From Oscillospiraceae bacterium (GTDB lineage Bacteria; Bacillota; Clostridia; Oscillospirales; Oscillospiraceae), in the NCBI GenBank assembly GCA_021771635.1, contig JAETOQ010000002.1, positions 1 to 64,000 of the forward strand: 64,000 nt of DNA, written 5' to 3'. This document shows positions 12,916 to 43,173 of this stretch, piece by piece; within the stretch, counting starts at the first letter, position 1; every line of letters starts with the position of its first letter. The position numbers and the translations under genes are program-made. Below the pieces are notes generated by a model. It was not told where the DNA came from, ran no database searches, and saw nothing but the letters and a program-made list of their open reading frames with translations.

Positions 12916-13097
12916 CCTCTCATTCCAAAATGCCGGGCCGTCAAAAAGGCTCCGCCCGCAGAGCGGTTGAATGTTTTCGCTGTTCTAATAAATCTAATAA
13001 AAAAGTTGTAAGATCCGGCGTTAAAAGTGCGGAAGAAAAGAGGGCGTTTTCCATAGAAGGCTTGACAAATTCTCAAAAAGGTCTTATCATGAGAAAC

Positions 13098-13196
13098 TGA
13101 CAATAGGGGAGTCCGAGTGGACGGGCTGAGAGTCGGATATATTCCGAGACCCTTGAAACCTGATCTGGATCATGCCAGCGTAGGGAGCATACTGTT
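13098..13196 (+). promoter_or_regulatory. TPP riboswitch (THI element)
   Basis: GGGGAGTCCG...GGGCTGAGAGTC...GACCCTTGAAACCTGATCTGGATCATGCCAGCGTAGGGAGC. Confidence 0.96.
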
Positions 13197-13230
13197 TTCG
13201 TCAAACAGATGGAGAATGACGATGGAGCGC

Positions 13231-24337: not shown

Positions 24338-24493
24338 TTATGTGTCCAGTTTACAAAAGAGCGCTGCGATATCCGCCGTAATGTCCTCCATGGTGCAGCC
24401 GATGCCCAGTAACTCGTTGGTATACACGCCGCCGTTCATTTCACCCGGCTGGAAGGCTTCCTCCTCCGCCTCCACGGTGCCCAGGGACCGCAT
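24338..24493 (-). other. Diverged second copy of lepA 3' end (possible 51-aa ORF with novel tail)
   Basis: MRSLGTVEAEEEAFQPGEMNGGVYTNELLGIGCTMEDITADIAALFCKLDT preceded by GGGCAAAAAGAAGATGCG, identical to lepA near its 3' end. Confidence 0.65.
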
Positions 24494-24514
24494 CTTCTTT
24501 TTGCCCGCCCCACA

Positions 24515-24656
24515 AAATCCTTGATTTTGCGGGGACCCCGTATTAGATCTGACCGGACAGGCAAAGCCCGCCCGGTCCAAGATTTTTCGCCATAGGCGAA
24601 AAATACTTGTACGCCGCTTCCGCGGCGGCTCGCTGCCGCTGGCAGAGGGCAAAAAG
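24515..24656 (-). repeat. Multi-hairpin 3'-end element (type A) after lepA
   Basis: Three successive hairpins then GGGGTCCCCGC-AAAATCAAGGATTTT-GTGGGG; homologous in order to 40430-40566. Confidence 0.7.
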
Positions 24657-26462
24657 TTATTCGTCCAGCTTGAGCACCGCCAAAAACGCCTCCGTGGGCA
24701 CCTGTACAGTACCGAGAGAACGCATCTTCTTTTTGCCCTCTTTCTGCTTTTCCAGCAGCTTCTTTTTCCGGGTGACGTCGCCGCCGTAGCACTTGGCCAG
24801 CACGTCCTTGCGCATGGCCTTGATGGTCTCCCTGGCGATGATCCGGCCGCCGATGGCCGCCTGGATGGGGATCTCAAAGAGCTGGCGGGGCACATTCTCC
24901 TTCAGCTTTTCGCACAGCCGCCGGGCACGGGGATAGGCCTTGTCCTTGTGGGCAATGAAGCTCAGGGCGTCCACCTTGTCGCCGTTTAAGAGCAGGTCCA
25001 CCTTCACCAGCTCGCTGGGCCGGTAGTCGGACAGCTCATAGTCCAGCGAGGCGTAGCCCTTGGTGTTTGCTTTTAAGGTGTCAAAGAAGTCGTAAATGAT
25101 CTCGTTCAGGGGCATCTGATAGTGCATCTCCACCAGATTCGTGTCCAGATACTGCATGTCCTTGAACTCGCCCCGGCGGTTCTGGCACAGGGGCATGATG
25201 TTGCCCACATACTCGTTGGGGGTGATGATGGAGACCTTGACGTAAGGCTCCTCCGCGTGCTCGATGACAGCCGGGTCCGGGTAGTTGTGGGGGTTGTCCA
25301 CCCGCACCTGTGAGCCATCGGTCTTGTAGACATGGTAGATGACAGAGGGCAGCGTGGTCACCAGGTCCAGGTCGAATTCCCGTTCCAGCCGCTCTTGGAT
25401 GACCTCCATGTGGAGCATTCCCAAAAAACCGCAGCGGAAACCAAAGCCCAGCGCCACGGAGGATTCCGGCTCGAAGCTCAGGGAGGCGTCGTTCAACTGC
25501 AGCTTTTCCAGGGCGTCCCGGAGATCGGGGTACTTGCTGCCGTCCTCGGTATAAATGCCGCAGTAGACCATGGGCTGCACCGGGCGGTAACCCGGCAGGG
25601 CCTCCGCCGTGGGCTCGGCGGCGTCGGTGACCGTATCGCCCACCTGGGTGTCCTTCACGTTTTTGATGGAGGCGGTGAAGTAGCCCACCTCGCCGGCCTC
25701 CAGCTGATCGCAGGGCTCCATACCCAGGGGCAGCAGATGGCCGCACTCCACCACCTGATAAACGGCGCCGGAGGCCATCAGTTTCACCGTCTGACCTGTC
25801 CGGATGGAGCCCTCCATCAGCCGCATATAGACGATGACGCCCCGGTAGCTGTCATACTGGCTGTCGAAAATCAGGGCTTTCAGGGGCGCGTTCACGTCGC
25901 CGGTAGGGGCGGGGACATTTTTCACAATGTCCTCCAGCACGGCGTCGATGTTGATGCCCATCTTGGCGGAGATCTCCGGCGCGTCCATGGCGGGCAGGCC
26001 GATGATGTCCTCCACCTCGTGCTTGGCCTTCTGGGGATCGGCGGCGGGCAGGTCGATCTTGTTGAACACCGGCAGGATCTCCAGATCGTGCTCCATGGCA
26101 AGATAGGTGTTGGCCAGGGTCTGGGCCTCCACGCCCTGGGTGGCGTCCACCACCAGCACCGCGCCCTCGCAGGCCGCCAGGGACCGTGAGACCTCATAGT
26201 TGAAGTCCACATGGCCCGGGGTGTCAATGAGGTTCAGCTCATAGATCTGTCCGTCCTGAGCTTTGTAGTTCAGGCGGACGGCCCGGGCCTTGATGGTGAT
26301 GCCCCGCTCTCTTTCCAAATCCATGTTGTCCAGCAGCTGGCTTTCCATCTGCCGCTGGCTCACCGCCTCGCACTTTTCCAGCAGGCGGTCCGCCAGTGTG
26401 GACTTGCCGTGGTCAATGTGGGCGATGATACTGAAATTTCGAATATTGTTTTGTTTTGTCAT
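24657..26462 (-). CDS. lepA: Elongation factor 4
   Basis: 601 aa; [50 protein letters not shown]-term [26 protein letters not shown]. Confidence 0.97.
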
Positions 26463-40359: not shown

Positions 40360-40429
40360 TTACTGTAATTTCTTCTTCAGCTCATACAGCAGACTCATGG
40401 CCTCGATGGGCGTCAGCGTGTCCGGCTGG
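40360..40429 (-). other. Second, diverged copy of the mutS 3' end
   Basis: Encodes QPDTLTPIEAMSLLYELKKKLQ*; about 60/70 identical to mutS 3' end at 40567-40636; normal spacing to downstream CPBP gene RBS. Confidence 0.85.
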
Positions 40430-40566
40430 CGCACCCCACCGCGCGGGGCGCGGCGGGGACCCCGCATTTGACTCAAATGGCCGGGCAAAGCCCGTCCATT
40501 TCAAGGTTTTGCCTTTGGCAAAACGCTTGGCGCGCCTTCCGGCGCGAACCGCCGCTGCCAGCTTGC
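40430..40566 (-). repeat. Multi-hairpin 3'-end element (type A) after mutS
   Basis: GCGCGCC... GGAA-loop hairpin, GTTTTGCCAAAGGCAAAAC hairpin, AAATGGACGGGCTTTGCCCGGCCATTT hairpin, GCGGGGTCCCCGC palindrome. Confidence 0.75.
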
Positions 40567-43173
40567 TTACTGTAATTTCTGCTTCAGTTCGTATAAAAGC
40601 GTCATGGCCTCAATAGGCGTCAGCGTGTCCGGCTGGCAGCGGCGGATGGCGTCCAGCACCTCGCCCTCCCCGATGGCGCCCAGGGACACCTGGTCCGCCT
40701 CCCGGCGGGGCGCGGTGTAGGAGACGCCGTTCTCCTCCTCCAGCTCTCTGAGGACTGCCTTTGCCCGCTGGACCACCTTGTCCGGCAAGCCCGCCAGCTT
40801 GGCCACTTCAATACCATAGCTGCGGTCCGCGCCGCCGGGGATGATCTTGCGCAGGAAAATGATGTCCTCTCCCCGAGTCTTGACGGCGATGTTGTAGTTC
40901 ACGGTGCCGGGAAGGGTGTTCTCCAGCTCCGTCAGCTCGTGGTAGTGGGTGGCGAAGAGCGTCTTGGCCCCCAGCAGCTTCTTGTCCGCGCAGTACTCCA
41001 GCACCGCCCGGGCGATGGACATGCCGTCAAAGGTGGAAGTGCCCCGGCCGATCTCGTCCAGGATCAGCAGAGAGTTTTTCGTGGCGTGGTGCAGGATGTC
41101 CGACACCTCCGTCATCTCCACCATAAAGGTGGACTGGCCGGCGGAGAGGTCATCGCTGGCGCCGATCCGGGTGAAGATGCGGTCCACCACGCCGATATGG
41201 GCGTGGGCCGCCGGGACAAAGCTGCCCATCTGGGCCATGAGGACGATCAGCGCCACCTGGCGCATGTAAGTCGATTTGCCCGCCATGTTGGGGCCGGTGA
41301 TGATGGCCACCCGGTCCTCTTTTTCGCCCATAAAGGTGTCGTTGGGGACGAAAAGCGTATCTTTGAGCACCTTTTCCACCACCGGGTGGCGGCCCTCGCG
41401 GATCTCGATGACGCCGGACTCGTCCACATCCGGGCGGCAGTAGTGATTGCGCACGGCCACGGCGGCAAAGGACGCCAGCGCGTCCACCTCCGCCACCGCC
41501 GCGGCGGTTTTCTGGATGCGGGGGGCCGTGTCGGAGATCTCCTGGCGCAGCTTCGTGAACAGCTCGTATTCCAGAGCCACCACCCGCTCGGAGGCCGTCA
41601 GGATCTCGTGCTCCAGGTCCTTCAGCTCCTGGGTGATGAACCGTTCGCCGTTCACCAGTGTCTGCTTGCGGATGTATGTATCCGGCACCTGGTCCTTAAA
41701 GGAGTTGCTGACTTCAATGTAATAGCCGAACACCTTGTTGTAGCCGATCTTCAGGGTGCGGATGCCGGTGGCCTCTTTCTCCTTGGCCTCCATCTCCGCG
41801 ATGACGCCCTTGCCGCTTTTCAGGATGTGCCGCAGGCGGTCCACCTCTTCGTCAAAGCCGTCCCGGATGAAGCCGCCCTCCCGGACGGAGAACGGCGGCT
41901 CGTCACAGATGGCGGCGGCGATGCGCTCGCCGATATCGTCCAGAGTGTCCAGCTCCGCCGTCAGCTCGCTCAGGCGGCGGTCGGAAAGGGCGGTCAGCTG
42001 CTCCTTCACAGCGGGCAGCTTTTCGATGGCCGCCCGGAGGGAGGCCATGTCCCGCCCGCCGGCGGTGCCATAGACGATGCGGCCGATAAGCCGCTCCATG
42101 TCCCCCAGGCCCGTCATGGCGGCGATCAGCTCCTCCCGGGCGATGGTGTTGTCCACCAGGGTGCTGACGGCGGAGTTCCTCTTGCAGATGGCGGTGACGC
42201 TGAGCAGGGGCCGCTCCAGCCAGGACCGGAGGCACCGGGCGCCCATGGGCGTTTTGGTCTTGTCCAGCACCCAGAGAAGACTCCCCTTTTTCTCCTTGTT
42301 CCGCAGGGTCTCCGTCAGCTCCAGGTTCCGGCGGGCCGTCAGGTCCAGCTCCATAAACCGGCCCTGCTCGTAGTAGTCCAGGTCGTTGATATGGGAGAGG
42401 TCCGTTTTCTGTGTCTCGTACAGATAATTCAGCAGACCGCCCAGGGCCATGGCCGCCGCCGGATTTCCGGCGGGCAGGCTCTTCAGGGCGTCCTCCCCGA
42501 ACTGCCGGCGGATGTTCTTCTCCGCCTCGTTCAGCAGGAAGCGGCGCTCGCCGCCGTTTTCGGTGCGGCAGTGGAATTTGTCCGTCAGAGCGTTAGTCAG
42601 GGCCTTTTCCGCGTATGCGCCGTCGTTCAGGATGGCCTCCGCCGGGGAGAAGCGGCCCAGCTCATTGATGACGTGCTCCACCCGGTCTTTTCCGGCAAAG
42701 GCCGTCAGGTGGGCCTTGCCGGTGGTAATGTCGCAGAAGGCGGCTCCGGCGGAGCGGGAGTCGATATAAATACCGCAGATGAAGTTGCTGGCCTTGTCAT
42801 CCAGGCAGGCGGCGTCGATGACGGTGCCGGGCGTGACCACCCGGATAATATCCCGCTTGACAAGGCCCTTTGCCGTGGCCGGGTCCTCCATCTGCTCGCA
42901 GATGGCCACCTTGTAGCCCTTGGCGATGAGCCGGGCGATGTAGGCCTCGCTGGCGTGGTAGGGGATGCCGCACATGGGGATCTGCTCCTCCGCCGGCTTG
43001 GCGTGCTTGCCGTGGTCTCGGGAGGTCAATGTCAGGTCCAGTTCCCTGGACGCAAGGCGGGCATCGTCGTCGAACATCTCGTAAAAATCGCCCAGCCGGA
43101 AGAACAGGATGGAATCCGGATTGTCCTTTTTGATCTCCAGGTACTGCTTCATCATGGGGGTCAATTCCGCCAT
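40567..43173 (-). CDS. mutS: DNA mismatch repair protein MutS
   Basis: 868 aa; TPMMKQYLEIKKDNPDSILFFRLGDFYEMF; ITGPNMAGKSTYMRQVALIVLMAQ. Confidence 0.97.
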   Translation of the reverse strand: MAELTPMMKQYLEIKKDNPDSILFFRLGDFYEMFDDDARLASRELDLTLTSRDHGKHAKPAEEQIPMCGIPYHASEAYIARLIAKGYKVAICEQMEDPATAKGLVKRDIIRVVTPGTVIDAACLDDKASNFICGIYIDSRSAGAAFCDITTGKAHLTAFAGKDRVEHVINELGRFSPAEAILNDGAYAEKALTNALTDKFHCRTENGGERRFLLNEAEKNIRRQFGEDALKSLPAGNPAAAMALGGLLNYLYETQKTDLSHINDLDYYEQGRFMELDLTARRNLELTETLRNKEKKGSLLWVLDKTKTPMGARCLRSWLERPLLSVTAICKRNSAVSTLVDNTIAREELIAAMTGLGDMERLIGRIVYGTAGGRDMASLRAAIEKLPAVKEQLTALSDRRLSELTAELDTLDDIGERIAAAICDEPPFSVREGGFIRDGFDEEVDRLRHILKSGKGVIAEMEAKEKEATGIRTLKIGYNKVFGYYIEVSNSFKDQVPDTYIRKQTLVNGERFITQELKDLEHEILTASERVVALEYELFTKLRQEISDTAPRIQKTAAAVAEVDALASFAAVAVRNHYCRPDVDESGVIEIREGRHPVVEKVLKDTLFVPNDTFMGEKEDRVAIITGPNMAGKSTYMRQVALIVLMAQMGSFVPAAHAHIGVVDRIFTRIGASDDLSAGQSTFMVEMTEVSDILHHATKNSLLILDEIGRGTSTFDGMSIARAVLEYCADKKLLGAKTLFATHYHELTELENTLPGTVNYNIAVKTRGEDIIFLRKIIPGGADRSYGIEVAKLAGLPDKVVQRAKAVLRELEEENGVSYTAPRREADQVSLGAIGEGEVLDAIRRCQPDTLTPIEAMTLLYELKQKLQ

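Follow-up and report, generated by a model that had tools for sequence, protein, structure and literature searches.

In this study, we analyzed a window of 64,000 nucleotides (the whole stretch of DNA examined) from an Oscillospiraceae bacterium, and found that the two hairpin-rich blocks following its lepA and mutS genes belong to one previously undescribed family of elements of about 120-150 bases from gut Oscillospiraceae. The unit starts at a junction (J) inside the gene and consists of a gene end of about 80 nt with its stop codon, a guide of 12-14 nt, three hairpins (H1, H2 and H3) and a palindrome; it ends about 3 nt past the palindrome, beyond which the gene end occurs a second time. 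The gene-end duplication and the complement of the insertion site were both absent from the original prediction for this DNA, and proved to be its most informative features. The anatomy and the base-pairing rule are observed, whereas mobility and the choice of an empty site by the guide are inferred from empty sites, the common scaffold, the tracking of targets by guides and the precision of the junctions. Our interpretation of the family as non-autonomous, base-pair-guided homing elements is a tentative one, with doubt slightly outweighing confidence.

Both elements in the window lie on the minus strand and, read in gene sense, have the same order of stop codon, H1, H2, H3 and GGGGTCCCCGC palindrome, just as had been predicted. 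The sequence between stop codon and H1 contains the reverse complement of the gene across J. In lepA, tail copy A (J to stop codon; 24657-24738) provides the functional 3' end within a 601-aa ORF (24657-26462), and its target across J, AGAGGGCAAAAAG (24729-24741), is complementary at 13/13 positions to the guide CTTTTTGCCCTCT right after the stop codon (24644-24656). An optional extra small hairpin (24628-24643) is followed by H1 (24612-24629; core GCCGC-GGAA-GCGGC), H2 (24578-24609), H3 (24551-24577; CGGGCTTTGCCTG core) and the right-end palindrome GGGGTCCCCGC-stem-GTGGGG (24508-24539). Beyond it lies tail copy B (24469-24506), a degenerating second 3' end with 82% identity to copy A over 38 nt. 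In mutS, copy A (40567-40637) is again the functional 3' end from J to the stop codon. The target CCGCCGCTGCCAGC (40632-40645) is complementary at 14/14 positions to the guide GCTGGCAGCGGCGG (40549-40562), after which come H1 (40531-40546; CGCGCC-GGAA-GGCGCG), H2 (40502-40529), H3 (40475-40501; CGGGCTTTGCCCG core) and the palindrome of the same GGGGTCCCCGC-stem-GTGGGG form (40434-40463). Copy B starts 3 nt later as an intact second 3' end with a stop codon (40360-40430) and is followed by the native downstream gene. Identity between the two gene ends was 82-86% at the window loci. Compared with dinucleotide shuffles, the folding z was -6.3 for the lepA block and -3.3 for the mutS block.

Some details of the predicted structure had to be revised. 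The GGAA loop of H1 holds for both window copies but is not a feature of the family, in which GAGT, AAGT, GGAA and GAAA are all common. Similarly, the H3 core described as conserved, GGGCTTTGCC, is the commonest H3 form, but it is not the only one. A second subfamily (L017, L018, L045, L046 and L199) has an GGAATTCACTTCC-type core in its place. H2 is present, with an outer CAAG/CTTG stem that closes it, and the palindrome is found at both loci within amended limits (the lepA stem reaches 24508, and the mutS stem occupies 40434-40458).

Across 109 distinct copies, 96.6% of the cells at 24 pairs were paired, and changes on both sides of a pair were observed in 332 cells versus 74 expected, a value reached by none of 500 shuffles; slid controls gave only 21-41 such changes. 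H1 was present in 157 of 169 distinct copies (32 expected) with 38 different stems, and the palindrome in 165 of 169 (63 expected) with 125 different stems. Thus, the suggestion that selection acts on structure, either as RNA or as single-stranded DNA, is supported by strong covariation, and none of the outcomes that would have refuted it (no covariation, random hairpin order, inconsistent boundaries) occurred, order and boundaries being constant. G-U cells outnumbered A-C cells in both alignments examined (39 versus 11, with one dominant G-U pair excluded, and 33 versus 2), which indicates that the gene-sense strand is the folding strand. This high G-U tolerance could favor RNA; whether the guided strand is single-stranded DNA, following an IS608-like logic, or RNA remains unresolved.

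No Rfam family exceeded its gathering threshold at the element loci, the sub-threshold hits being chance matches only, and no published description of the family was found in a limited literature search of incomplete coverage. The window also contains a TPP riboswitch on the plus strand (13095-13204; 65.1 bits, above the Rfam gathering score), which overlaps the start of the ORF listed from 13117.

Analysis of occurrence revealed 15 copies in the window's own genome (covariance model, E < 1e-4). A first model built on H2, H3 and the right end detected copies in 17 of 60 related genomes, every one in the same genus, and a refined model extended the family to 73 of 301 genomes, covering 37 of the 106 sampled genera of the host family. 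Copies occur across the Oscillibacter/Dysosmobacter genus, and the named hosts are Oscillibacter, Dysosmobacter and other Oscillospiraceae. Tandem arrays of units are common. One scaffold is common to elements in unrelated genes, and the elements must therefore have spread at some time. Viral contigs yielded no exact pattern match to the element, and matches in plasmids were at chance level only. An unverified faecal phage fragment (L361; MT839134.1:60-156) carries the element H1 and a CAAG-H2-CTTG hairpin together with a different H3, and is regarded as a related subfamily on putative phage sequence, subject to that lack of verification.

Several other hairpin-rich sequences were encountered. 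In the window's own genome, a rubrerythrin-tail copy (L003/L015; C58:9493-9800) carries a nested insert of about 150-190 nt, rich in hairpins and with TACTAA...TTAGTA ends, in the interval from H3 to the palindrome. The same intergenic hairpin-rich locus, CCCCCCATTC...GGATGGGGGG, was matched in several species (L011, L057, L072, L236, L263 and L279); it resembles the 3' end of a small RNA that has not been annotated, and the two loci searched against Rfam (L011 and L072) gave no match above threshold. Another genome repeat, TTTGCTTAAAATACGGGGGCCC..., has similar GC palindromes and is unrelated to the element (L357 and L358, in G000 C65 and C109).

We then considered the gene-end duplication. 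A direct repeat of the gene end was found in 94 of about 108 testable copies of the first set, nearly all from the genus. Copy A completes the host gene, copy B runs on into native downstream sequence, and in most copies copy B starts 1-4 nt past the palindrome stem. The targets, whose names were read off C-terminal motifs in the loci without database searches, include mutS (two sites about 10 nt apart), lepA, guaB, glmS, valS, rsmH, era, infB, alr, rubrerythrin and a phage gene. Within the genus, the element is missing from most mutS orthologues, in which a single uninterrupted tail leads directly to the same downstream gene. At the window's mutS site in another genome (G012; L303), the duplicated tail encloses an insert that has decayed or folds differently, pointing to use of the same site by other scaffold families. 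Reversed copies at gene starts (L068, L065, L109, L096 and L201) repeat the start codon and leader, and one copy repeats an entire tRNA-Leu. The antisense copies at gene starts retain the guide, and read-through from the host gene is therefore not a requirement.

The complementarity between guide and junction was not restricted to the window. An ungapped match spanning J with a score of at least 9 was present in 71 of 127 distinct copies, versus 1.8% of swapped controls in which guides were compared with the junctions of other loci; about 44% of the copies had no convincing match. The footprint extended from -6 to +7, with identity of at least 85% from -3 to +5, and a GGA-like motif precedes J. 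The spacing between J and the guide complement was 75-100 nt in 60 of the 71 copies, with a minor class at 47-58 nt. It is kept nearly constant by a trade-off between the length of the repeated segment and that of the filler before the guide (rho -0.90). Guides also follow the synonymous changes of their own gene: for orthologous insertions with differing targets, the guide fitted its own target better in 43 cases and the target of the other species better in 11 (p 1.4e-5; pairs not independent). No significant wobble excess was observed in guide:target pairs (17 versus 14). The possibility that the guide is merely a by-product of insertion is disfavored by the fixed footprint and the target tracking, which argue for a function.

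With regard to inheritance, elements that occupy one gene in different genomes had a higher likeness (0.80) than those that occupy different genes within a genome (0.70), and lineages are therefore gene-locked. No recent jump from gene to gene was visible among the elements compared, so present activity is unproven. Tails A and B within a genome had a likeness of 0.95, versus 0.82 for tail A between genomes, and the within-genome value was the higher on both sides in 33 of 41 pairs. Identity between the copies peaks near J and drops toward the stop codon; the stop-proximal end, the filler and the guide are shared within an element lineage. Two syntenic genomes of about 93-96% identity (G024 and G061) differ at one site, with the element and duplication in G024 and a single uninterrupted copy in G061, and their lepA arrays have two units versus one; gain and loss cannot be distinguished from this comparison alone.

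These data fit repeated homing into the same gene, and concerted evolution of tandem units could also be a source of the A/B likeness. The latter belongs to the main rival of guided homing, namely that the insertions are old and vertically inherited, with tails kept alike by unequal crossing-over between tandem units. Patchiness would reflect precise loss through recombination between the tails, and guide:target pairing would have a local role, such as in mRNA 3'-end structure. The abundance of tandem arrays, the different array sizes in G024 and G061, the gene-locked lineages and the lack of a recent inter-gene jump are all in line with such a history, and recombination between tails would be an easy route of loss. 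However, element and host-gene divergence were uncorrelated (171 pairs, rho 0.10), some guides match the target of another species better than their own, and the scaffold common to unrelated genes implies spread at some time. We consider this rival unlikely.

Under guided homing, the element would act in a single-stranded form whose guide pairs across J and whose hairpins draw the right end up to J, and an as yet unidentified trans-acting enzyme would cut and join at both points. Excision would rejoin the gene to copy B, and insertion would place the unit at J of an empty allele recognized through guide pairing; it would be nearly harmless because the unit's own gene end regenerates the host gene. 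By analogy, our leading guess for the guided strand is single-stranded DNA processed much as in IS608, with the guide just 5' of the hairpin foot, although we give it a little less credence than would be needed to favor it outright. Target recognition by IS608 relies on pairing to a guide 5' of the hairpin base and can be engineered to 12-17-nt targets (PMC5934647). Likenesses to this member of IS200/IS605 include the single-stranded element, its subterminal hairpins, a guide immediately 5' of the hairpin foot that pairs at the left cleavage site with the target flanking the left end, and excision able to restore the site precisely (PMC5934647). On the other hand, the pairing of IS608 covers 4 nt, the element carries TnpA and no duplication arises (PMC5934647), whereas the present elements pair over 12-14 nt across the junction, repeat about 80 nt of the gene end and have no tracking Y1 enzyme. 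Nor do their gene-specific targets and frequent duplication (94 of about 108 copies) resemble IS608-like insertion 3' of a short fixed target. Further points against this reading are the length of the repeated segment and the absence of a Y1 enzyme from one genome (G008), and the paste of a foreign tail does not predict that tails A and B should be more alike within a genome than tail A is between genomes.

RNA-guided copy-in is ranked second to IS608-like single-stranded DNA for the guided strand. Here, the 5' guide of an element RNA would pair with the coding strand at J, and a nick at J in the opposite strand would supply the 3' end that primes copying of the RNA, starting at the palindrome and working backwards. 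Annealing of the new strand to the resident gene end would then produce the gene-end duplication; in nature, this would parallel target-primed reverse transcription or prime editing. Such a process would account for a copy A that is resident-like near J and lineage-specific in its stop-proximal end, filler and guide, and also for the long duplication and the sense-strand G-U tolerance; yet no reverse transcriptase (PF00078) was detected in five of nine element-rich genomes (G004, G018, G024, G028 and G029), which have many copies, no 5'-truncated copies were recognized among 44 right-end matches, and antisense copies would require a promoter of their own. We regard copy-in as improbable, though still a serious possibility. 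The broader proposal, that gut bacteria harbor a new class of RNA-guided copy-in elements, in which a structured RNA with a 13-nt guide and a re-encoded gene end writes itself into the matching gene by nick-primed synthesis while the gene stays functional, is more speculative and appears rather improbable.

The original prediction had also envisaged a helper recombinase or transposase with matching ends, which was looked for and not found. In a presence/absence analysis of 41 congeneric genomes, none of Y1_Tnp, RVT_1, RAYT, RRXRR/IscB, IS110 and TnpB tracked the element well. A Y1 transposase was present or decayed in several element-rich genomes and absent from G008, which has 23 copies, with the caveat that these are draft MAGs. 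The best, yet weak, correlate was IS110, with strong matches in seven of nine rich genomes and also in several element-free ones; the bridge-RNA guides of IS110/IS1111 are split over two strands, and the present guide is one contiguous complement of one strand. No autonomous copy with an ORF between the ends was seen in more than 170 copies, and no homing endonuclease ORF was found, only about 120-150 nt of hairpins lying between the tails. RAYT-like Y1 proteins occur beside gyrase/topoisomerase- and uvrB-like genes in several congeners (L129, L130 and L133). Two cmsearch matches near Y1 or reverse transcriptase genes (L125 and L137) proved on inspection to be hairpins unrelated to the family.

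Homing by an RNA-guided, IscB-like nuclease was also considered, in which empty alleles would be cut and repair would copy the element in. A guide 5' of a structured scaffold and the gene-locked, homing-like pattern would suit this mechanism, but copy A retains the full target, and the nuclease would thus also cut the allele that carries the element. In addition, the IscB family (PF14239) was found in only two of the 41 genomes, TnpB did not track the element, and inspection by eye revealed no common adjacent motif in the flanks of four early copies. We consider this explanation very improbable.

Other known systems share parts of this design. The mORFs of fungal mitochondria (for example in Allomyces and Glomus atp6) insert in a gene end and duplicate the C-terminus, the carried tail keeping the host gene functional and the native tail being left downstream (PMC3630166). 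They encode a homing endonuclease and carry a clearly foreign tail with 64-81% identity to the native one (PMC3630166), whereas the present elements have no ORF, mostly similar tails (about 95%), a guide and an RNA-like scaffold. REP/RAYT and REPIN sequences are likewise small non-autonomous hairpin elements of bacterial chromosomes (e.g. PMC3116915). In contrast to that system, RAYT genes are missing from most element-rich genomes. To our knowledge, REPs have neither a site-specific guide nor a gene-end duplication. In group I introns, the internal guide sequence (P1/P10) pairs with both sides of the rejoined junction. The likeness is one of topology only, in that the guide aligns both sides of a junction; no group I ribozyme core was found in the scaffold of simple hairpins (about 120-150 nt), no Rfam match was obtained at the loci, and the unit ends in hairpins only. 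These failed membership tests weaken identity with IS608- or mORF-type elements, not the idea that the family works along similar lines.

The element accounts for the partial gene duplications that recur at gene ends in genomes of Oscillospiraceae, and the search for its enzyme becomes directly testable. If the guided-homing reading is confirmed, these elements would find their site by base pairing, enter conserved housekeeping genes such as mutS, lepA, valS, infB and era, and remain harmless through the repeated gene end. They would then represent a new logic of programmable insertion beside the IS608 and CRISPR-type examples, and might offer a tool for writing into gene ends without disruption.
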